DNA of 24,962 bases from a virus. This document shows, one piece after another, positions 3,109-19,677 of the stretch. The notes below the pieces were generated by a model. It did no database searches. It was not told the origin of the DNA and worked only from the letters and a program-made list of their open reading frames with translations. Numbering within the stretch: position 1 is the first letter of the stretch; each line of letters starts with the position of its first letter. Position numbers and translations under genes: made by a program. Location: positions 1-24,962 of the IMG/VR virus record IMGVR_UViG_3300047379_000111; one strand, written 5' to 3'.

Positions 3109-4149
3109 ATGTCTCATAGCCCAGACTATAGCAGATCTAATTTAAATTTAAGAGCATACAGTATTAAAGAGGTACTACCTCAATACTACGCAAGTGCATA
3201 TCCAAATCTAATTACTTTCTTAGAAGGTTATTACGATTATATGGATTCAGATGGTACTATCGATGCTCTACAAGATTTATATAGTCTATATGATTTAGAG
3301 GCAACTAACTTAGAATACATTGAGAATATATTTGCATCGATTGCTGATGGTGCTAATTCGACATATTTTAGTGAACCGCGTGAAGTACTTCGAAACTTCG
3401 CAAATTTTTATAGAGTTAAAGGAACAAAGTATTCTGCCGAAGGTTTTTTCCGTGCGTTCTATGGCATCGATGTTGAAATAGAATATCCAAAGAATAATAT
3501 GTTTATTGTGAGTGAATCGCAAATAGGTACAGAATCTCTTCGATTTATTCAAAACAGTGCATTATATCAAATATTCTCTGTTCTTATTAAATCATCCGTT
3601 CCATTAAATACATGGAAAGATTTATATAAAAAGTTTGTACATCCAGCTGGATTCTTTTTAGGCGGATCTGTTGTTTTAGAAATGCCTTCTACAAACTCAA
3701 TTCTTTTGACTATGCCAGATAACATTGATGAACCGCCACCTCCATTATTTGTTGAAGGTACTGCGACTTATACGATACCAAATGGCTTAGTAGAAACACT
3801 TGGTGTTCTTCCGGACGATGGAGATTCAGATACAGTGGTAGAACGTATAAATCTAGATGCAAAAGTTAGCGAATATAAAGATATGCCTGCTGACGTCTTT
3901 GCTGCATCTTACGGTAAAATAGACGATGCAATGAATATTAACTCGCCGACATTCGATGATTCGGCAAAAGACTTTGCGCCATTCTACTCAGACGGAGAAG
4001 AAGGCCCAGCTCATGATCAGCATGGTGTGAGAATGAGCAATGATATAGAAAGGTTCGATAAGGCAACATGGTTCTATGACTCAGCTGCTGGAAATCCACG
4101 CTATATGACAATTGGTTATGTCGATTCAGATTACGTAGAACTTACTTAG
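3109..4149 (+). CDS. gp7 / P2 gpI-like baseplate wedge protein
   Basis: This 346-residue protein directly follows gp6. Residues 20-140 hold a helical domain: 'VLPQYYASAYPNLITFLEGY', an acidic 'IDALQDLYSLYDLEATNLEY', then 'REVLRNFANFYRVKGTKYSA' and 'EGFFRAFYGIDVEIEYPKNN'. The pattern (LPxxY, then RxxLxNFxxFYRxKGT, then FFRxxFG) recalls the tail-protein-I domain, which matches the N-terminal part of T4 gp7. Full gp7 is about 1000 residues, so this would be a strongly shortened wedge protein. The C-terminal third is acidic and low in complexity and ends in 'YVDSDYVELT'. The position between gp6 and gp8 supports a gp7 role. Structural function is likely; gp7 identity is an inference. Confidence 0.6.
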   Translation: MSHSPDYSRSNLNLRAYSIKEVLPQYYASAYPNLITFLEGYYDYMDSDGTIDALQDLYSLYDLEATNLEYIENIFASIADGANSTYFSEPREVLRNFANFYRVKGTKYSAEGFFRAFYGIDVEIEYPKNNMFIVSESQIGTESLRFIQNSALYQIFSVLIKSSVPLNTWKDLYKKFVHPAGFFLGGSVVLEMPSTNSILLTMPDNIDEPPPPLFVEGTATYTIPNGLVETLGVLPDDGDSDTVVERINLDAKVSEYKDMPADVFAASYGKIDDAMNINSPTFDDSAKDFAPFYSDGEEGPAHDQHGVRMSNDIERFDKATWFYDSAAGNPRYMTIGYVDSDYVELT

Positions 4150-4158
4150 AGGTAAAAA

Positions 4159-5748
4159 ATGGCAATTACATTACGAAATACTAAAGGGACGGCATTGACC
4201 CACGTCGAACTCGATGCCAACTTTACCACATTGCAGAACGCTGACTTAGATTCAGCTGCAATCACATCAATAGCGCAAGCTGCACAAGGTAGTATAAATT
4301 TAAATACTATCGCCGGTGATTCTGATATAAATTTTGGAACACATAAAATATTATATTCAAACAATTATGATTCAGCTGGCGCATTACCAGCTGCTGGAAC
4401 ATATCATGGTATGTTTGCTCATGTTCATTCCGAAGGTGCAGGATACATGGCACATGGCGGAGCTTGGGTGAAGCTTGCTAATTTTAGTGATGTCGGTACA
4501 GGAATCGACTCGGCTAAAACAATATCGCTTGTTGATTCGAATTATGTATCTGCTAGAATCGGTAGTGTAAGCGGACATACAGATATTAATATGTCTGGCA
4601 TTTCAAATAACCAGATCCTTAAATGGGATTCTGCTCAACAAATGTTTATAGCAGCTGCCGACGTAAGTGGCGGTGGTGGAGGCGGTGGCCTAGGATATGC
4701 TGACTTTAGTGTTTCTACAAATGCCGCAGGATCACCTACTCTATCATATAATAACGGTACAGGTGTATTCTCATATACACCTCCGGACTTGTCGAGTTAC
4801 TTAACAAGCTATACTGAAACAAACGATTTATCAGCCGCAGTTACTTGGACTAATATTCCTGATACAAATGTGCCAGAAAGTGCTGTTACTCAACACCAAG
4901 CAGCATTATCAATTACAGAAAGTCAGGTTAGCGATCTACAATCTTACATCACTGGTTATACCGTAACAGAAGGAGATGTAACTTCGCATCAAGCTGCACT
5001 ATCAATAACTGAATCTCAAATTAGTGATTTAGGAAGTTATCTTGCTAATGGTTCATCTATTGATATGAACGGAAATGAATTAGTAATGGATGCTGATGGT
5101 GATACATCATTCCATGCAAGTGTTGATGATGAGATTGACATTCGAGTCAAAGGTACAGATGTAGGTAAGTTTGACTCTGATGGTCTTATTATTAATTCGA
5201 TACGAACAAGTACAGCAGGAACACCTACGCTTACATCGTCATCTAATATTAATATGACAGTTGGCGGATCTGTTACTGTTTCGGGTGGTGGATTTAGAGT
5301 TGCTTCTCTTACCACATCTCAAAGAGGATCTTTAACTGCGGCAAACGGTGAGATAATTTATAACACTGATAATGGTCAGTTTGAGATCTATCAGCGTGGC
5401 GATTGGACAGCTATGACACGAGGCGCTTCGTTGTTTACACTTACAGCAAGCGGAAGCAGTCATTATATCTTTAATGATCCGGACGGTCATTGGTTTCCTA
5501 CAGGCGAAAACGATCCTTTGTTATATTTACGTAGAGGCGAAACATATTATTTTGTAAATAATTCTGGTGGTTCACATCCCTTTGAGATTAGAGCTAGCGC
5601 TGGTGGATCTGCATACAGTACAGGCGTAACGAATAACGGTAGCTCAAACGGTACTATTGTATTTAAAGTTCCAATGTCTGCTCCATCTACTTTATATTAC
5701 CAGTGTACTGCGCACGGATCAATGGGTAATACAATCAATATTATATAG
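4159..5748 (+). CDS. Tail fiber-like protein with C-terminal cupredoxin-like domain
   Basis: This 529-residue protein starts after a strong GAGGT site five bases before the ATG. Residues 10-27 carry the fiber N-terminal motif 'LTHVELDANFTTL'. Residues 80-106 hold a His-rich patch (H83, H88, H90, H99, with HVH = HxH) ending in 'AHGGAWVKL'. Residues 148-171 are a module also found in the large fiber at 20061. A run of glycines (171-177) is a hinge, and two 'HQAALSITESQxSDL' repeats start at 246 and 277. Residues 425-529 look like a cupredoxin: 'LRRGETYYFVNNSGGSHPFE', then 'YQCTAHGSMG'. H473, C516, H519 and M522 give the full type 1 copper ligand set with amicyanin-like CxxHxxM spacing. The fiber role is a family inference, and copper binding is predicted from the motif only. 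Confidence 0.8.
   Translation: MAITLRNTKGTALTHVELDANFTTLQNADLDSAAITSIAQAAQGSINLNTIAGDSDINFGTHKILYSNNYDSAGALPAAGTYHGMFAHVHSEGAGYMAHGGAWVKLANFSDVGTGIDSAKTISLVDSNYVSARIGSVSGHTDINMSGISNNQILKWDSAQQMFIAAADVSGGGGGGGLGYADFSVSTNAAGSPTLSYNNGTGVFSYTPPDLSSYLTSYTETNDLSAAVTWTNIPDTNVPESAVTQHQAALSITESQVSDLQSYITGYTVTEGDVTSHQAALSITESQISDLGSYLANGSSIDMNGNELVMDADGDTSFHASVDDEIDIRVKGTDVGKFDSDGLIINSIRTSTAGTPTLTSSSNINMTVGGSVTVSGGGFRVASLTTSQRGSLTAANGEIIYNTDNGQFEIYQRGDWTAMTRGASLFTLTASGSSHYIFNDPDGHWFPTGENDPLLYLRRGETYYFVNNSGGSHPFEIRASAGGSAYSTGVTNNGSSNGTIVFKVPMSAPSTLYYQCTAHGSMGNTINII
4894..5040 (+). repeat. Tandem 54-base coding repeat in fiber
   Basis: Two diverged 54-base units at 4894-4947 and 4987-5040 encode HQAALSITESQVSDLQSY and HQAALSITESQISDLGSY. 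The protein is conserved while most third codon positions differ, so this is an old in-frame duplication under protein-level selection. Such units are common spacers in phage fiber shafts. Confidence 0.75.
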
Positions 5749-5755
5749 GTAAACT

Positions 5756-7279
5756 ATGTCAGAAAAAGATTATATAATAGCAATGGAAAAAGGTCAAAGT
5801 AAAGACCTTTTAAAAGACGAACTCACAGCAGAAGCTGGAAACGATTACGTTCCGGCTCGATCTGTTGATGTAGTTTATAGCCGTGATGGTAGTAAGCGTC
5901 ATTTTAATATGGCTTTAACAGACGAAGAAGCTGAGACACTACGATCAGATCCAAGGGTTAATAGTGTACATACTCCTATTGAATGGTCTGATGACTTTTT
6001 AGATTTTGAATATAATCATAGAAATAATTGGGAACGACAAAGTAATAATACAAACCAGAATAACTGGGGATTATTGCGACATATTGAAGCAACAAATGGA
6101 TGGGGATCAAGTGTAACAAGTCAACGCGAGACTTTAAAATATACCGGGCATTTAGATGGTGAAGGCGTTGATCTAGTTGTGCATGAAGGAAATACTGCTA
6201 GATACGATCATGAGCAGTTTGCTGGTAGATATAATCAGCTTCAGTGGAATACATTACCAAATATGAGTGGTGCAAGTACTATTAATTACACAAGTTCAGA
6301 TTCATATGGCTATCACGCTACACACGTTTTAGGAACTATGGGAGGAGCGACTGTTGGTTGGGCACCGAAAGCTCAGTTATATAGTATGCCTGCTGATGCA
6401 ACAGACGGCATTGGTAATAGTACTTGGTGGTTTGATGCAGTAAAAGAATTTCATAAAAATAAATCAGTAGATCCTACTACAGGATATAGAAGACCAACCG
6501 TCGTAAATATGAGTTGGGGATATAAGACGTACCATTTTTATAGTGGCGTATCACTAGTTACTAATATTAATTATAGAGGTACTAGTACCGGAGCAACTGC
6601 TGCCAGTAGTTCATACGGTCTAATAGGAGATGGTTCTAACAGAATTAATTGCCCTATTTACGGATTACAATCTGAAGTAGAAGAAATGCAAGATGAAGGT
6701 ATCATTGTCACTAAGTCAGCCGGAAATCAATATCAAAAGCTAGACGTTGAAGGTGGCATAGACTACGATAATTATTTTACATCAAGTGCTACTCAAGGAA
6801 ACATTACTGCAGGAGATCCGCTTTATTATAATAGAGGTGCTAGTAATATCGGTGAACACACTATCGTTGTAGGTAATATGGATTCTCAATTATATTCTTA
6901 TTCAGAAGCTACAGCTACATCAAGTGAAAAAGGTCCTCGCGTTGATGTTTGGGCTGCAGGAACTGATATTGTAAGTAGTCATGATTACAGTAATAACTCG
7001 TATGCAAACCTTGATGGAACAAGTATGGCTGCACCACAAGTAGCCGGCATGGCCGCGCTATTAATGCAAATGAACCCAGGTATGACTCCAAAACAGGTCA
7101 GAGAATGGTTTATAAATAATGCTAAGACAGGCTTGATGTATGTTGGTGATACTGATAACACAAGTTATTTTACGAATAATAGAAATTTACAAGACGGATC
7201 AGGTAGAATTGCTTATTGGCCTTTTAGCGACCATAGGCCGATTAATCTCTCCGTCAACACCGAATATGTATCGTTTTAG
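5756..7279 (+). CDS. Subtilisin-family (S8) serine protease with propeptide-like N-terminus
   Basis: This 507-residue protein has an N-terminal region (about 1-77) like an inhibitor I9 propeptide: an opening strand 'KDYIIAM' and 'LTDEEAETLRSDPRVNSVH'. The S8 catalytic domain follows. The His motif is 'YHATHVLGT' (H187), the oxyanion Asn is in 'KSAGNQ' (N324), and the nucleophile is in 'LDGTSMAAPQVAGMAALLMQ' (S423). The Asp motif aligns at 'GEGVDLVVHEGNT', where E144 sits in place of the usual Asp. No signal peptide is seen. It follows the cupredoxin fiber by 7 bases (AGGT site), so the two are likely co-expressed late. Plausible roles are maturing a neighbouring fiber or cutting host surface protein. 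It is unlike the T4 prohead protease gp21. The family is certain; activity is uncertain because of the Asp change. Confidence 0.88.
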   Translation: MSEKDYIIAMEKGQSKDLLKDELTAEAGNDYVPARSVDVVYSRDGSKRHFNMALTDEEAETLRSDPRVNSVHTPIEWSDDFLDFEYNHRNNWERQSNNTNQNNWGLLRHIEATNGWGSSVTSQRETLKYTGHLDGEGVDLVVHEGNTARYDHEQFAGRYNQLQWNTLPNMSGASTINYTSSDSYGYHATHVLGTMGGATVGWAPKAQLYSMPADATDGIGNSTWWFDAVKEFHKNKSVDPTTGYRRPTVVNMSWGYKTYHFYSGVSLVTNINYRGTSTGATAASSSYGLIGDGSNRINCPIYGLQSEVEEMQDEGIIVTKSAGNQYQKLDVEGGIDYDNYFTSSATQGNITAGDPLYYNRGASNIGEHTIVVGNMDSQLYSYSEATATSSEKGPRVDVWAAGTDIVSSHDYSNNSYANLDGTSMAAPQVAGMAALLMQMNPGMTPKQVREWFINNAKTGLMYVGDTDNTSYFTNNRNLQDGSGRIAYWPFSDHRPINLSVNTEYVSF

Positions 7280-7312: not shown

Positions 7313-8299
7313 ATGACTCGGCAGAACATATCAACTGGCACTTTTGCTAACGATGGAAGCGGTGATACGCTTCGTCAAGCTGGTCAAAAGATTAATGAAA
7401 ATTTTGTTGAGCTATACAATAAACTTGGAGGAGATAGTGATACTCTGACAGGTTCTTTGACTGTTGCTGGTGGAGGTCTTCTTTTTGAAGGCGAGACTGA
7501 TGATACAAACGAAACAATTTTAAATGCTCAGGATCCTTCACAGGATAATACTATAACTTTGCCAAATACTTCTGGTAATGTTGTGCTTGACTCGGCCACA
7601 CAAACTCTATTAAATAAAACATTAACAAGTCCTACATTAAAAACTCCGCGCATTAATGATACATCATCGACTCATAACTATTTTGTTACTGTATCTGAAT
7701 TAGCAGCAGATAGAAATATTAATTTACCTATTTTAGCAGCTGACGATGTTTTAGTATTTAATGATCACGCTGCAACTCTGACAAATAAAACTCTTACGAC
7801 TCCAACAGTATCTCAGCCAAAAATTAGTGGCTACATTGCGGATGTTAACGGAGCTGAAGTTTTTGGTATTACTTCAATAGGAAGTGCAATTAATTATGTT
7901 GGTGTGCAAAATGCTGCTACCGGAACTAATCCTGTTTTAAGTGCGAATGGAGATGATCCTAACGTTAATTTAAACATGGCAGGCAAGGGTACTGGATCAG
8001 TAGAAATTGATAAAGGCGCACATGGCGTTTCTACAATTACGGCTACTGGAGCTGCGGATACTTCTAAATCGTTTATTCTATCTAATTCAGCAACACCAAT
8101 ATCTGTTTCTGTAGCTGACGGTACAACGGTAGGAGAATATAAGATATTTACAAATAAGAATGCTGGTGCTGCTACTATCACTCCAGCCAATTTTGGACCG
8201 GGAACTAGCATAGCTTTGAATAACAATCAAGGTTGTCATATGATTTGGGATGGTGGAAATTGGCAGTTGATTGGTAACAATGGCGGAACAGTGAGCTAG
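7313..8299 (+). CDS. Fiber-like structural protein
   Basis: This 328-residue protein is preceded by GAGGT seven bases before the ATG. The first 40 residues, including 'GDTLRQAGQKINENFVELYN', form an N-terminal motif shared by many marine phage fiber or neck proteins and probably anchor it to the particle. The middle holds two 'LNKTLTSPTLKTPRI / LTNKTLTTPTVSQPKI' repeats (about residues 102-117 and 155-170), typical of beta-rich shaft segments. The last 130 residues include 'NMAGKGTGSVEIDKGAHGVS' and end in 'CHMIWDGGNWQLIGNNGG', a compact beta domain often closing such fibers. A T4 gp9/wac-type role is possible, but no specific homologue is recognised. Confidence 0.7.
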   Translation: MTRQNISTGTFANDGSGDTLRQAGQKINENFVELYNKLGGDSDTLTGSLTVAGGGLLFEGETDDTNETILNAQDPSQDNTITLPNTSGNVVLDSATQTLLNKTLTSPTLKTPRINDTSSTHNYFVTVSELAADRNINLPILAADDVLVFNDHAATLTNKTLTTPTVSQPKISGYIADVNGAEVFGITSIGSAINYVGVQNAATGTNPVLSANGDDPNVNLNMAGKGTGSVEIDKGAHGVSTITATGAADTSKSFILSNSATPISVSVADGTTVGEYKIFTNKNAGAATITPANFGPGTSIALNNNQGCHMIWDGGNWQLIGNNGGTVS

Positions 8300-8309
8300 G
8301 GAATCTAAA

Positions 8310-9689
8310 ATGGTTGCAATTATTACAGATAGATTTAAGAAACAAATTCTAAATGATCTTTTTACAGATGTCACTGATTCAGCTGACACATACTATATTG
8401 CTATTGGTAGATCGCAAGATTGGAATGCTACAGACGTAGCCGTAACACCTACTAATACAGCAAAGACTGAAAGAGATTTTAGATCTAGTATGCAAGCAAT
8501 GAAAAAAGGTGAAGATGTTTCTTATGTGATTCCTCGTTACAACTGGTCTTCAGGTACAATTTATTCTGGATATGATGATCATGTTCAAGGTTATCCAACA
8601 AATGGATATTATGTTATGACTGACGAACTTGCTGTATTCTTATGCCTACAACAAGGGCGGGATGCACAAGGAAATGCAGTTGCTTCTACTATTAAACCAT
8701 CGGGATCATCACTAGATCCTCTTACTACTTCAGATGGTTATGTATGGAAATATCTCTATGGCCAAACTGCTTTGCGGTCAACAAAGTTTACATCGGCTAA
8801 TTATATTCCTGTACAATTTATCGACTCAGCTGGTGCATCGGCTCCAGCTCTTGAGCAAGAACAAAAAACGATTCAAAATGCTGCAATTCCAGGTCAGGTC
8901 GTAGGAGTTAAAATAGACAATGGCGGTTCAGGATATACATCTGCGCCAACTGTCGGATTTACTGGTAATGGTACAAGATCTCCGATAGCTACGGCTACGG
9001 TTTACAATGGTGCAATTGTAAAAATCGAGATGAATGATTCAGGCACAGGAAAGGCCTTTGGCGCTGGATATGATTATGGATCAGTAACATTTTCTGGTGG
9101 AGGTGGTACAGGAGCACACGGCCGGATGATATTAGCTCCAGATGCTGGAATAGGTGCCGATCCAAGAGAAGATTTAAGATCTACCGCTCTTATGTTTAAT
9201 ACTAAGCTTGAAGGTGATGAAAATAATGCATTAATTACAAGCAACGATTTTAGGCAGGTAGGACTTATTAAAAATCCAGTAGAAACAGATTCAGCATCAA
9301 CCGGTGCATTATTCACTGCTCCTGCAGGTAATGTTTTAAATAAATTAAAGTTTGGTTCTATTGCACAAAATTTTAGTGAAGATAAAACCATTCAAGGATC
9401 TACAACAGCTGCAAAAGCATATGTAGATAAATTCGATTCAAACTATGTTTGGTATCATCAAACTGATTCCACCGGTTTTCTTTTATTTCAAGAAGGTGAG
9501 ACAGTTACTGAGTTAGACGGTAATGGTGAAGGCATTCTTGATTCTGCATCAGTTGATGGAGATAATGATGCATATACTAAATCTACAATAAAACCTTTCT
9601 CTGGAACACTATTATATGTAGATAATAGGGCTGCGATTGAAAGAGATCCAAACCAAACCGAAGACATTAAAGTTATTATTCAGCTGTAA
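8310..9689 (+). CDS. 8: Baseplate wedge protein gp8
   Basis: This 459-residue protein matches the gp8 family. The N-terminus 'IITDRFKKQILNDLFTDV' with 'YYIAIGRSQDW', and 'SDGYVWKYLYGQTALRSTKF' at about 141-160, are the usual landmarks. T4 gp8 has 334 residues; the excess is explained largely by a glycine-rich insert at about 204-272 with the pattern 'GGSGYTSAPTVGFTGNG' and 'VTFSGGGGTGA', a beta module found in several phage structural proteins. gp8 is a dimer at the outer wedge that helps bind gp6 and gp7 during assembly. An AGGGA site precedes the ATG. It lies 9 bases before the giant baseplate gene. gp8 identity is firm; the role of the insert is unknown. Confidence 0.88.
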   Translation: MVAIITDRFKKQILNDLFTDVTDSADTYYIAIGRSQDWNATDVAVTPTNTAKTERDFRSSMQAMKKGEDVSYVIPRYNWSSGTIYSGYDDHVQGYPTNGYYVMTDELAVFLCLQQGRDAQGNAVASTIKPSGSSLDPLTTSDGYVWKYLYGQTALRSTKFTSANYIPVQFIDSAGASAPALEQEQKTIQNAAIPGQVVGVKIDNGGSGYTSAPTVGFTGNGTRSPIATATVYNGAIVKIEMNDSGTGKAFGAGYDYGSVTFSGGGGTGAHGRMILAPDAGIGADPREDLRSTALMFNTKLEGDENNALITSNDFRQVGLIKNPVETDSASTGALFTAPAGNVLNKLKFGSIAQNFSEDKTIQGSTTAAKAYVDKFDSNYVWYHQTDSTGFLLFQEGETVTELDGNGEGILDSASVDGDNDAYTKSTIKPFSGTLLYVDNRAAIERDPNQTEDIKVIIQL

Positions 9690-16596: not shown

Positions 16597-17547
16597 ATGG
16601 CAAGATTTTCAAATAAGATTGAAAGCTTAAGATACGCTGATAGACAACATAAGTCTATAGAGATCCTATACAAGAACGGCGAAACAATAAATCCATATTA
16701 CATAGAAGTTGATTATAATAACCAAGACTTTTTAGATCTCTTGGAAGAATATTCTATTGATGACATAGAAGATCAAACAAGAATATATTATGAGAATATT
16801 AATATGCGAACTGAAAATGCTGTTCTTGATAAAGCCACTGAAATGTTTAAATCGTGGATTAAAAACGCACAAATAGATTTAGATAAACAAGACGTAGAAA
16901 GATATGAGTTATTTGAAAGATATAAAGAAGGACAACTTGTTGAAGCTGATGCACAAGTAGAACGTAGAGTTCAAGAAGGATACGAAGGTGTACAAGCAGA
17001 AGTAGATCGTCAAGTAGAACAAAGATTAGAAGAAGGATATAAAGGCATTCAAGCCGCTATAGATGAACAGTATAAAGAAGTTGAAACATATAAAGAAGAA
17101 CAACTAAAAATATTACAGGCTGAAGTTGACGAACAAGTAGAAAGACGTGTTTCTGAAGGATTTGCTGATGTTGATGCATATAGAGAAAAACAATTATCAG
17201 TTCTACAAGCGGAACTCGATCAGCAAGTAGAACAAAGATATAAACAAGCTGATGAATATAAAGATAGTCAGGTTAGTATTATTCAACAAGAAATTAAAAC
17301 GGATTTATTAAGCAAATTTAATGTGCCTACTCAGCCGACTATATCATATACTCCAGAAAAAGTTGCTAAATATATGATAGATAATTTTAAAGATGAAGAT
17401 ACGGTATTTAAAACTAAATTACAAATTTTTAATTTGTCTGAGGTTAAAAACAGCAAAGACCGTGAAATGAAAATGAAAGTACGTAAAGCAAAAACCGTAC
17501 CTGAAATATTTGCAGCATATTATGATATTCAATGTAATCACAGTTAA
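16597..17547 (+). CDS. Coiled-coil repeat protein
   Basis: This 316-residue protein starts after an AAAGG site. The N-terminal 70 residues form a small acidic alpha/beta domain ('HKSIEILYKNGETINPYYIE', 'SIDDIEDQTRIYYENI'). Residues 100-235 are a long Glu/Gln/Lys/Arg-rich helix built from diverged repeats whose core reads QVExRxxEGxxxxQAExD. The C-terminal 70 residues are again compact and basic ('KDREMKMKVRKAKTVPEIFA'). The layout, two end domains joined by a rod, suggests a trimeric or dimeric stalk or whisker, or a scaffold. Its 3' end overlaps the first glycosyltransferase gene by 26 bases. No function can be assigned. Confidence 0.7.
   Translation: MARFSNKIESLRYADRQHKSIEILYKNGETINPYYIEVDYNNQDFLDLLEEYSIDDIEDQTRIYYENINMRTENAVLDKATEMFKSWIKNAQIDLDKQDVERYELFERYKEGQLVEADAQVERRVQEGYEGVQAEVDRQVEQRLEEGYKGIQAAIDEQYKEVETYKEEQLKILQAEVDEQVERRVSEGFADVDAYREKQLSVLQAELDQQVEQRYKQADEYKDSQVSIIQQEIKTDLLSKFNVPTQPTISYTPEKVAKYMIDNFKDEDTVFKTKLQIFNLSEVKNSKDREMKMKVRKAKTVPEIFAAYYDIQCNHS
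16954..17293 (+). repeat. Degenerate coiled-coil coding repeats
   Basis: Encoded residues 120-232 contain four related units: QVERRVQEGYEGVQAEVD, then QVEQRLEEGYKGIQAAID 19 residues later, then a unit starting at QVERRVSEGFADVD, then one starting at QVEQRYKQADEYKD, with linkers of the type 'YKEEQLKILQAEVDE'. Bases differ more than residues, so they are old duplications. Confidence 0.75.
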
Positions 17548-18226
17548 GTTTGGTAACAAATATGATTCTGAATTTGTTAATAGACTTTTTAGAGAAATTT
17601 GTTATTTTAGCAGAGGCTATTATGTAAACGGCTGGTTTAAGTTCTATTGCTATACAGATAATCCAGAAGGATTAATGCATGGTATTAACGTTATTCCTGC
17701 AAAAACAGATCCAACATTAAAAGGCGTATGGAATAAGCTACGCCTCTTTGATCCTTCTATGCCATATGTAAGAGAAGGACATTACAACATTTACTTAGAT
17801 TTAGACACGTTTGTGCAAGATTGCATCTTTACACGTTTCAGTCATTTCGGTGAAAAGGACTGGAGTACACTTCACGTGTGTGGCGCGCCGTGGAAAAATG
17901 ATAAAAAAAGATATGGTAGACTATCTAGTTATGATGTAAATATACATAGTTCTGTGATGTCGTGGAATGCTCTAAGCCAATTTGAAATATGGAATCATTT
18001 TAACAATCATGGTTTACGTGATTATTATATGAGAAAATACTCGGGTGGCATGGATAGATTCTTGGCTCATGAAGATGTAAATATGAAAACGTTCAAGCGT
18101 GATTTTGTAAGATCTATGAAATACGATAAAAATATAAAAGATGCAGCTATTGTATCATTTGAGGAACTAGATGTACGATTCGGAGATCTTATACCGAACT
18201 ATAAAATTAAGCGAGAAAGTGTATAA
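17522..18226 (+). CDS. Glycosyltransferase-like protein (GT-A, DxD)
   Basis: This 234-residue protein is taken from the ATG at 17522; a TTG at 17510 adds four residues. It begins with a strand typical of sugar-nucleotide folds, 'MIFNVITVKFGNKYD', and 'KFYCYTDNPEG' near residue 40, which is GT8-like. The metal and donor-binding motif is 'NIYLDLDTFV' with DLD at 93-95. 'HSSVMSWNA' and 'MDRFLAHEDV' follow at the usual acceptor-side positions. It should transfer a sugar from a nucleotide donor in the cytoplasm of the infected cell. It overlaps the coiled-coil gene by 26 bases and the methyltransferase by 56, so the genes form a coupled unit. The acceptor (virion protein, host glycan or DNA base) cannot be read from sequence. 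Confidence 0.7.
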   Translation: MIFNVITVKFGNKYDSEFVNRLFREICYFSRGYYVNGWFKFYCYTDNPEGLMHGINVIPAKTDPTLKGVWNKLRLFDPSMPYVREGHYNIYLDLDTFVQDCIFTRFSHFGEKDWSTLHVCGAPWKNDKKRYGRLSSYDVNIHSSVMSWNALSQFEIWNHFNNHGLRDYYMRKYSGGMDRFLAHEDVNMKTFKRDFVRSMKYDKNIKDAAIVSFEELDVRFGDLIPNYKIKRESV

Positions 18227-18794
18227 CGAATCTATGTATGGGGTAGATGATCTCTATCGCATAAAAGATTTATCTCACTCTATGGATTATAATCATTGGG
18301 TTGGAAAAGAACATCTTGCAAAAAAGCTTTGTGAATTATATAATCATGACGCCGGTAAATTATTAGTACTCGGCGGGTGGTACGGCATGATGGCTTATCA
18401 ATTACGTAAGCAATGGCCGCAAAAACAAATGAATATAGAATCTACCGATATGGATCCTATGTGCGAAGAGTTTGGATATGAATTATTTGGTGATGAAGAC
18501 ATTACATTCTCCACCCTCAACATAAGTGACTCTTTTATTATAACACAATATACAGGGATTGTAAACACCTCTTGTGAGCATATGGAGCAAAAAGATTTAA
18601 TTAATATAGTTAAATCAAAAGACCCTAGCTGTTGGGTTGCTTTCCAGTCAAATAACTATACTGACTTAGATTCTCATGTTAATTGTTATCCTACAGCCGA
18701 GATGTTTGCAGAAAGTTTAGGTCTCGATTGGGTTGCTGATGTTGATACTTTAGATCTAGGTGACTTTCAAAGGTTTACAGTCATTGGAAAATAA
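18171..18794 (+). CDS. Class I SAM-dependent methyltransferase-like protein
   Basis: This is a 207-residue protein with Rossmann-type methyltransferase marks. Motif I is 'LLVLGGWYGMMAYQL' at 64-78, the acidic ribose-binding position is in 'ESTDMDPMCE' at 90-99, and 'GIVNTSCEHME' at 129-139 matches a conserved motif of phage methyltransferases found with glycosyltransferases. The start at 18171 has a good GAGG six bases upstream but lies inside the preceding gene (56-base overlap). ATG 18234, eight bases after that gene's stop, would give 186 residues and keep all motifs. It is flanked on both sides by glycosyltransferases, so a sugar or glycosylated protein is the likeliest substrate. No DNA methyltransferase catalytic motif (DPPY or PC) is seen. 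Confidence 0.68.
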   Translation: MYDSEILYRTIKLSEKVYNESMYGVDDLYRIKDLSHSMDYNHWVGKEHLAKKLCELYNHDAGKLLVLGGWYGMMAYQLRKQWPQKQMNIESTDMDPMCEEFGYELFGDEDITFSTLNISDSFIITQYTGIVNTSCEHMEQKDLINIVKSKDPSCWVAFQSNNYTDLDSHVNCYPTAEMFAESLGLDWVADVDTLDLGDFQRFTVIGK

Positions 18795-19677
18795 AGTAGT
18801 ATTCAGTATTTTTATTGATATTCCTGAAGATCGTTTAGATAATCCAGGATGGTGGGAAAACGGCAAACAGGTCACGACAGATAAAAGTAAACAAACCAAG
18901 TTAGCTTTACTTAATAATGCTGAACTTGTAACTGAACGACAAAAACAATACGCAAACGATATAGGTGCTGACTATATACTATTTCAGTATGATAGTACAT
19001 ATAAAAATTTCTTCGATGATATAAAAAATAGGTTTACAGAGATCTCAGAATATGATATAGTAAACTTTTATAAGCATCGAGTAATGAGGGACTTAGCTGA
19101 TGAATATAATTATGTATGTTATCTCGATTTTGATGTTGTACCAAATACTACTGACTGTATATTTCAAGTACATAATGTAGATAAAATGTTAGCGGTTGCT
19201 GAATCTAATAGATTGGCAATACGTGGTAAAGTTATGAAAGCAGAAGATTACAGCCTTTGCATTCGTAATCCTGCCACAAAATATTGGAATACTCATGCTC
19301 TTCTCATGGAAGAAGGATATGATCCAGAAAATGACGTGTTTAATACCGGGATTATGGCGGCATCATCAGAAGTAATTAAACGACTAGATTATTTTCGTGA
19401 CTTTGATTATATTATAAAACTTATGAGTGAAGTAAAACACGATGAGTTTTCGATGTATCCAAAAAATATTCAACGAGTATTTAATTATGATAACGAAACC
19501 GTCTTTTCATACTGGGTCAAAGCTCGAGAAATTCGAATACAATATATGACAAAAGAATGGCATTGGCTAGTAGATGAATTAATAACTGAGCCAAAACATA
19601 TAGATCCTAAAGCAAAAATATATCATTTCATAAACAAGAAAATGGAGTGGATAGAAGATATAAATAAGAACAAATAA
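18784..19677 (+). CDS. Glycosyltransferase-like protein (GT-A, DxD)
   Basis: This is a 297-residue protein if started at TTG 18784, which has AAAGG ten bases upstream and places the first strand 'KVVFSIFIDIPE' at the N-terminus. GTG 18760 would add eight residues and lacks a ribosome site. The donor and metal motif is 'YVCYLDFDVVPN' (DFD at 115-117). 'VFNTGIMAASSEV' and 'NYDNETVFSYW' supply the usual downstream acidic and asparagine positions, and 'IYHFINKKMEW' closes the domain. It overlaps the methyltransferase by 11 bases. It is longer than the first glycosyltransferase and not an obvious copy, so the two probably add different sugars. The target is unknown. Confidence 0.7.
   Translation: MENKVVFSIFIDIPEDRLDNPGWWENGKQVTTDKSKQTKLALLNNAELVTERQKQYANDIGADYILFQYDSTYKNFFDDIKNRFTEISEYDIVNFYKHRVMRDLADEYNYVCYLDFDVVPNTTDCIFQVHNVDKMLAVAESNRLAIRGKVMKAEDYSLCIRNPATKYWNTHALLMEEGYDPENDVFNTGIMAASSEVIKRLDYFRDFDYIIKLMSEVKHDEFSMYPKNIQRVFNYDNETVFSYWVKAREIRIQYMTKEWHWLVDELITEPKHIDPKAKIYHFINKKMEWIEDINKNK
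19659..19666 (+). promoter_or_regulatory. T4-type late promoter box (TATAAATA)
   Basis: An exact TATAAATA lies within the last codons of the glycosyltransferase gene (encoding DIN of DINKNK), 29 bases before the ATG at 19696. The spacing matches the box before 23412, so it probably drives the beta-sandwich and large fiber genes independently of the enzyme island. Confidence 0.75.

Follow-up and report, generated by a model that had tools for sequence, protein, structure and literature searches.

The last 105 residues of a protein of 529 amino acids, encoded at positions 4159 to 5748 of the viral DNA analyzed here (hereafter the window, 24,962 nucleotides in full), almost certainly form a cupredoxin-like domain with the full set of copper-ligand residues. 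On balance, we favor an explanation in which residues 425-529 adopt a cupredoxin fold with an intact type 1 ligand set, represent a module that has been shuffled among virion proteins, and would assist contact with the host through stabilization by copper. The predicted fold and its aligned ligands are the strongly supported part of this explanation; copper is the probable metal, because two His, one Cys and Met or Gln within a cupredoxin fold form the copper set of characterized proteins, and the combined structural and host-contact role is put forward tentatively.

Both the fold and the ligand set are already known; what is new in the literature searched is their setting in the phage virion. 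Our search for cupredoxins or type 1 copper in structural proteins of phages, cyanophages and giant viruses, in which subscription journals were thinly covered, returned no prior description and found no copper centre known as a component of phage particles, and some homologues may already bear a cupredoxin label in automatic domain databases. The nearest published idea, that iron is bound at HxH motifs in phage fibers (PMC11705849), concerns a different site. If our explanation is true, the baseplates of marine T4-like cyanophages bear metalloprotein domains, adsorption acquires a concrete and testable link with copper, virions become a possible pool of copper ligands in seawater, and a function can be given to a domain for which annotation now offers no more than 'baseplate wedge tail fiber connector' or 'hypothetical protein'. 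Marine T4-like cyanophages count among the sea's most abundant viruses.

Predicted fold and ligand set of the C-terminal domain

The carrier protein, its domain and the putative ligands are located as follows.

4159..5748, + strand: fiber-like baseplate-region protein of 529 aa with the cupredoxin domain; intact ORF with N-terminus MAITLRNTKGTALTHVELDANF, matching phrog_677
5431..5745, + strand: C-terminal domain of predicted cupredoxin fold, residues 425-529 (AlphaFold2 and Foldseek)
5575..5577, + strand: His473, putative first equatorial ligand, after RGETYYFVNNSGGS in the loop that joins strands 462-467 and 475-478, with Pro474 next (HPF)
5704..5706, + strand: Cys516, putative thiolate ligand, closing strand 511-516 (YYQC)
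5713..5715, + strand: His519, putative second His ligand from the plastocyanin alignment, in the loop that leads to the final strand
5722..5724, + strand: Met522, putative axial ligand, in that loop to the final strand; Gln in one subfamily

The AlphaFold2 model of residues 421-529, built on 59 homologues, has a mean pLDDT of 94.9, a pTM of 0.87 and eight strands, in agreement with the Greek-key β-sandwich of seven to eight strands that characterizes cupredoxins; the model of the full-length protein is poor (pLDDT 57.5). Nearly all of the best 50 PDB matches listed by Foldseek are cupredoxin-fold proteins, the best being rusticyanin, plastocyanin, amicyanin, AcoP, purple cupredoxin, nitrite reductases and multicopper oxidases, with E values from 5.6e-5, a probability of 1.00 and modest TM-scores of 0.5-0.6. 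Despite these modest scores, the consistency of the list counts strongly in favor of the predicted fold. Structure prediction, which the earlier note had proposed as a check on its claim of a cupredoxin-like domain, has therefore returned such a fold, and the claim is borne out by the model together with its structural matches.

Sequence searches of Pfam, NCBIfam and PDB with the window domain yielded no decisive match, and none to PF00127 (Copper-bind) at E<=1. This profile is matched weakly by 31 of 62 relatives (best E 3.2e-5), the homologue S-SZBM1_206 scoring 14.3 bits, below the cut-off of 21.2 bits, and the family profile aligns with plastocyanin 1b3i with an E of 0.03, which is not significant alone. 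In this profile alignment, H473, C516, H519 and M522 pair with all four copper ligands of 1b3i. The domain reads ...YLRRGETYYFVNNSGGSHPFEIR...STLYYQCTAHGSMGNTINII and holds the four residues exactly where they had been placed before, with the C-x2-H-x2-M spacing of Cys516, His519 and Met522. Alignment, strand positions and co-conservation all put His, Cys, His and the axial residue where they canonically stand in the sequence, and the ligands are placed relative to the predicted strands as in a type 1 copper site. The complete type 1 set with amicyanin-like spacing that the earlier note had described is therefore upheld, being both aligned and co-conserved.

Conservation and joint loss of the ligands

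Because some search seeds contained ligands, the scan for homologues was repeated with a seed on the ligand-free motif Y-x-T-G-V-T-N-N, which lies between the ligands. H/C/H/M was found in 101 of 118 domains, query included; one additional domain has it after correction of a 1-residue misalignment, and five are cut by contig ends. A chance motif is rejected, since a scan seeded in this way still recovers the ligand set at such frequency; a random fiber domain was considered and rejected as well.

When all loci were pooled in 120 clusters at 70% identity, H, C and H were present together in 98 clusters, exactly two of them in none, one in 9 and none of them in 13, so that 22 clusters have lost two or three. 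Partial cases therefore number 9, as against 48 expected from column shuffling (minimum 38 in 5000 trials), a procedure that ignores kinship. Loss of Cys516 or His473, which was to be looked for as evidence against the domain assignment, is thus not routine among the homologues. In the same 120 clusters, C516-H519 is the strongest of 820 pairs of conserved columns, with a correlation of 0.97, followed among the ligand pairs by H519-M522 and H473-H519 (both 0.77), C516-M522 (0.74) and H473-C516 (0.72); ranks 1-7 of the 820 are taken by ligand pairs and Pro474. A tree built without the ligand columns requires 10 ligand losses, at least four of which are forced by supported branches, and in independent tree pairs H473 never changes in the direction opposite to C516/H519, with at most five supported pairs, too few for a sign test to attain 0.05.

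The axial residue is conserved in 92% of sequences, and in one subfamily of 13 sequences Met is replaced by Gln (C-x2-H-x2-Q). Gln as axial ligand is a known variation of type 1 sites, as in stellacyanin. Because the four residues are kept and lost together and rank at the top of the co-variation, we conclude from the sequences that they act as a single functional site of metal type under selection.

Members devoid of the ligands occur in several lineages, with NSNM, SSDM, ISQM, YATM or DATM at the four positions; the domain being retained in these lineages, the metal is therefore not needed everywhere. The ligandless group consists in part of a divergent second domain in wedge proteins of ~996 aa, where the alignment is less sure. 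In the Syn19 wedge subunit (L084, 6304-10503) and its relatives of ~996 aa and larger, this ligandless second cupredoxin-like domain is seen beside an intact-looking copy.

The carrier gene and its neighborhood

The protein encoded at 4159-5748 matches the profile phrog_677, 'baseplate wedge tail fiber protein connector', over residues 197-528 (E 3.8e-47). It has no match in Pfam, the cut-off of PF07880 (the N-terminal domain of T4 gp9/gp10) not being reached, no signal peptide visible in the sequence of its N-terminus (MAITLRNTKGTALTH), and no haem or other redox domain. The domain described above is the only cupredoxin domain in the window. Two genes lie downstream of its carrier.

5756..7279, + strand: subtilase (Peptidase_S8) gene, directly 3' of the cupredoxin gene (PF00082, E 1.7e-27)
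7313..8299, + strand: protein with a T4 gp9/10-like N-terminal domain (PF07880, E 3.7e-8), without cupredoxin domain

These genes belong to a T4-like baseplate block with gp25-like and gp6-like genes upstream, labels based on similarity in sequence and on matches to genes annotated as baseplate wedge. The order in the block is Baseplate_wedge/Hc2-like (3109-4149), the cupredoxin gene (4159-5748), subtilase (5756-7279), gp9/10-like (7313-8299) and gp8-like (8310-9689). Among phage records, the closest relative of the gp6-like protein is gp6 of Phage C48C1 (family Kyanoviridae), which is 42.5% identical; the window has no match to phage records at the DNA level, and a plasmid search gave no match either.

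The subtilase gene adjoins the cupredoxin gene in most close relatives, in many with a gap of 7 nt, and phrog_9158 covers both parts, which are fused in a single ORF in three loci (L382, L179 and L087). A protein of ACG-2014e (L467, 1264-3324) resembles these fusions, its protease part resting on phrog_9158 and a BFVD title of peptidase S8. In the clade of the window, the position of the catalytic Asp of the subtilase appears to be Glu (VVHEG vs. VIQDSG), while His and Ser are kept. Elsewhere in the window, at 17510-19677 inside the structural gene block, lie three consecutive overlapping genes without strong Pfam match, which by eye resemble enzymes of glycosyltransferase or methyltransferase type.

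Distribution of the module and presence in virions

The domain is found at E<=0.01 in 368 phage records, almost all of cyanophages (280 Synechococcus, 57 'Cyanophage' and 21 Prochlorococcus, redundant counts), and in hundreds of IMG/VR loci; for scale, gp6-like matches number 373 Synechococcus and 61 'Cyanophage' records, these counts also being redundant. In Syn19, ACG-2014d, RB11-B and S-SZBM1 it forms the C-terminus of a protein with a PF07880 (T4_gp9_10_N) N-terminus. Since the window has this N-terminus on the separate gene at 7313-8299 and the cultured cyanophages fuse both, the modules have been reshuffled. Larger virion proteins elsewhere carry the domain at their N-terminus or internally, and it is present in the podovirus P-GSP1 and, without ligands, in the siphovirus PSS2; in S-CREM2 it is not encoded in the three genome stretches examined (42,000 to end). 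The domain is thus a module found widely and in shuffled arrangements among the virion proteins of marine phages, typically C-terminal in a gp9-like baseplate or fiber protein of T4-like cyanophages.

Its position bears on two readings of the earlier note, namely that the domain caps the tip of a fiber and that this terminal domain is metal-binding or redox-capable. In the protein at 4159-5748 the domain is C-terminal and may lie at the tip of a fiber; its internal or N-terminal position in many other proteins weakens a universal role at the tip. The fold and ligand set that the second reading requires are retained, but not its confinement to fiber tips.

All four ligands are also present in cellular relatives (L092, L094, L095 and L098-L100), among them CHRD proteins from Flavobacteria MAGs, a small, lipoprotein-like protein in a Bdellovibrionales MAG and very large surface-type proteins of Prochlorococcus single cells; phage contigs probably account for some of the MAG matches.

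S-SZBM1_206, which has the cupredoxin domain with all four ligands, was detected by LC-MS in CsCl-purified virions with 9 peptides and 24.9% coverage (PMC9146016). As S-SZBM1 is reported to be without long tail fibers (PMC9146016), its presence there argues against a role of the protein only as a socket for such fibers. Given that many marine phages have the module on their virion proteins, copper may be carried by phage particles, as judged from the ligand sequences.

Nature of the metal and role of the site

The alternative that survives best, a purely structural site for another metal such as zinc loaded in the host cytoplasm, seems rather unlikely to us. It would agree with the folding of phage proteins in the cytoplasm, in which extremely little free copper is tolerated, with the readiness of Cys/His sites to take zinc and with the lack of a visible signal peptide; however, in all known characterized relatives two His, Cys and Met or Gln in a cupredoxin fold are the copper set, and a role for zinc would not lead one to expect conservation of an axial Met. 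Nor does this ligand set point to iron, and an iron site of the HxH kind is rejected, there being no HxH in the sequence of the domain.

In the copper-based mechanism that we favor, the trimeric fiber would be made in the cytoplasm without metal and the site in each subunit would bind one copper, either as the cell lyses or afterwards. This copper would lock the loops forming the outer end of the β-sandwich, which would face the host and either help adsorption or anchor a partner fiber.

We favor such a copper-stabilized, outward-facing baseplate module aiding host contact over electron transfer, which is less likely. A redox-active copper, by exchanging electrons on the surface of the host or within the periplasm, could trigger or tune rearrangement of the baseplate or fiber, and the full type 1 set with axial Met (or Gln) is indeed that of electron-transfer cupredoxins, with an axial residue as conserved as noted above. 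The proposal is nonetheless improbable when set against a protein with neither a known partner nor a redox domain, the Pro that follows the first His where plastocyanin, azurin and amicyanin have Asn, and the occurrence of the module in many unrelated architectures. Doubtful, too, is the broader idea that most marine T4-like phages have several type 1 copper centres facing the host on the baseplate, the redox state or occupancy of which would gate adsorption or triggering; were such gating true, copper of the host and of seawater would be a control on infection.

It is quite improbable that the domain is a metal-free β-sandwich of cupredoxin derivation, serving as adhesin or spacer with ligands that are relics or only form hydrogen bonds. 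The ligandless lineages and the existence of copper-free, ephrin-like cupredoxin folds would fit this possibility, but relics would decay singly, whereas the ligands are lost together and otherwise kept across ~100 clusters, and their pairs outrank nearly all other pairs of conserved columns. That fiber metal is offered to metal-uptake receptors of the host, a 'Trojan horse' with a precedent in the hypothesis for HxH iron sites (PMC11705849), is very improbable here, given that the ligand set differs from that motif, that a type 1 site, being buried, offers no metal for hand-over, and that none of the results points to a copper receptor on the surface of Synechococcus or Prochlorococcus.

Comparison with known systems

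With the plastocyanin/azurin family (PF00127; Prochlorothrix plastocyanin 1b3i) the window domain shares the fold and the four ligands in order, but it is part of a virion protein, shows no signal peptide, whereas soluble cupredoxins that carry electrons are exported to the periplasm or lumen and have a transfer partner, and its first His is followed by Pro rather than Asn (HP, not HN). Amicyanin has the same C-x2-H-x2-M spacing and matches the fold (1sfd, TM 0.56/0.58), whereas identity is ~17% and the phage domain is without a known redox partner system. Rusticyanin, AcoP and the type 1 domains of nitrite reductases, the best structural matches (E 5.6e-5 and up), are respiratory enzymes or carriers, with TM-scores of only 0.5-0.6 to the phage domain. 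The type 1 site of multicopper oxidases is HPxHLHGH, and with its Pro after the first ligand His the HPF of the phage domain is closer to these oxidases than to plastocyanin, although the phage domain is single and lacks a type 2/3 copper site. Stellacyanin resembles the one phage subfamily with axial Gln, while most of the family keeps Met and the phage domain belongs to a structural protein.

Regarding phage proteins, the likeness to T4 gp9/gp10 lies in the PF07880 N-terminus shared by the cultured cyanophage proteins that bear the domain; T4 gp9 is absent among the best 50 fold matches listed. The HxH motifs, repeated along the axis of the trimer, that are proposed to bind iron in the fibers of T4 (gp37) and of Alteromonas phage R22Y (PMC11705849) offer the parallel of a proposed metal site on a marine phage fiber, with a different fold, different ligands and probably a different metal. 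By structure, the model is also matched by 'beta-sandwich' proteins of Pithovirus and Marseillevirus (BFVD A0A481Z6J5, A0A481YWX9 and others), with E values of ~4e-6 to 3e-5.
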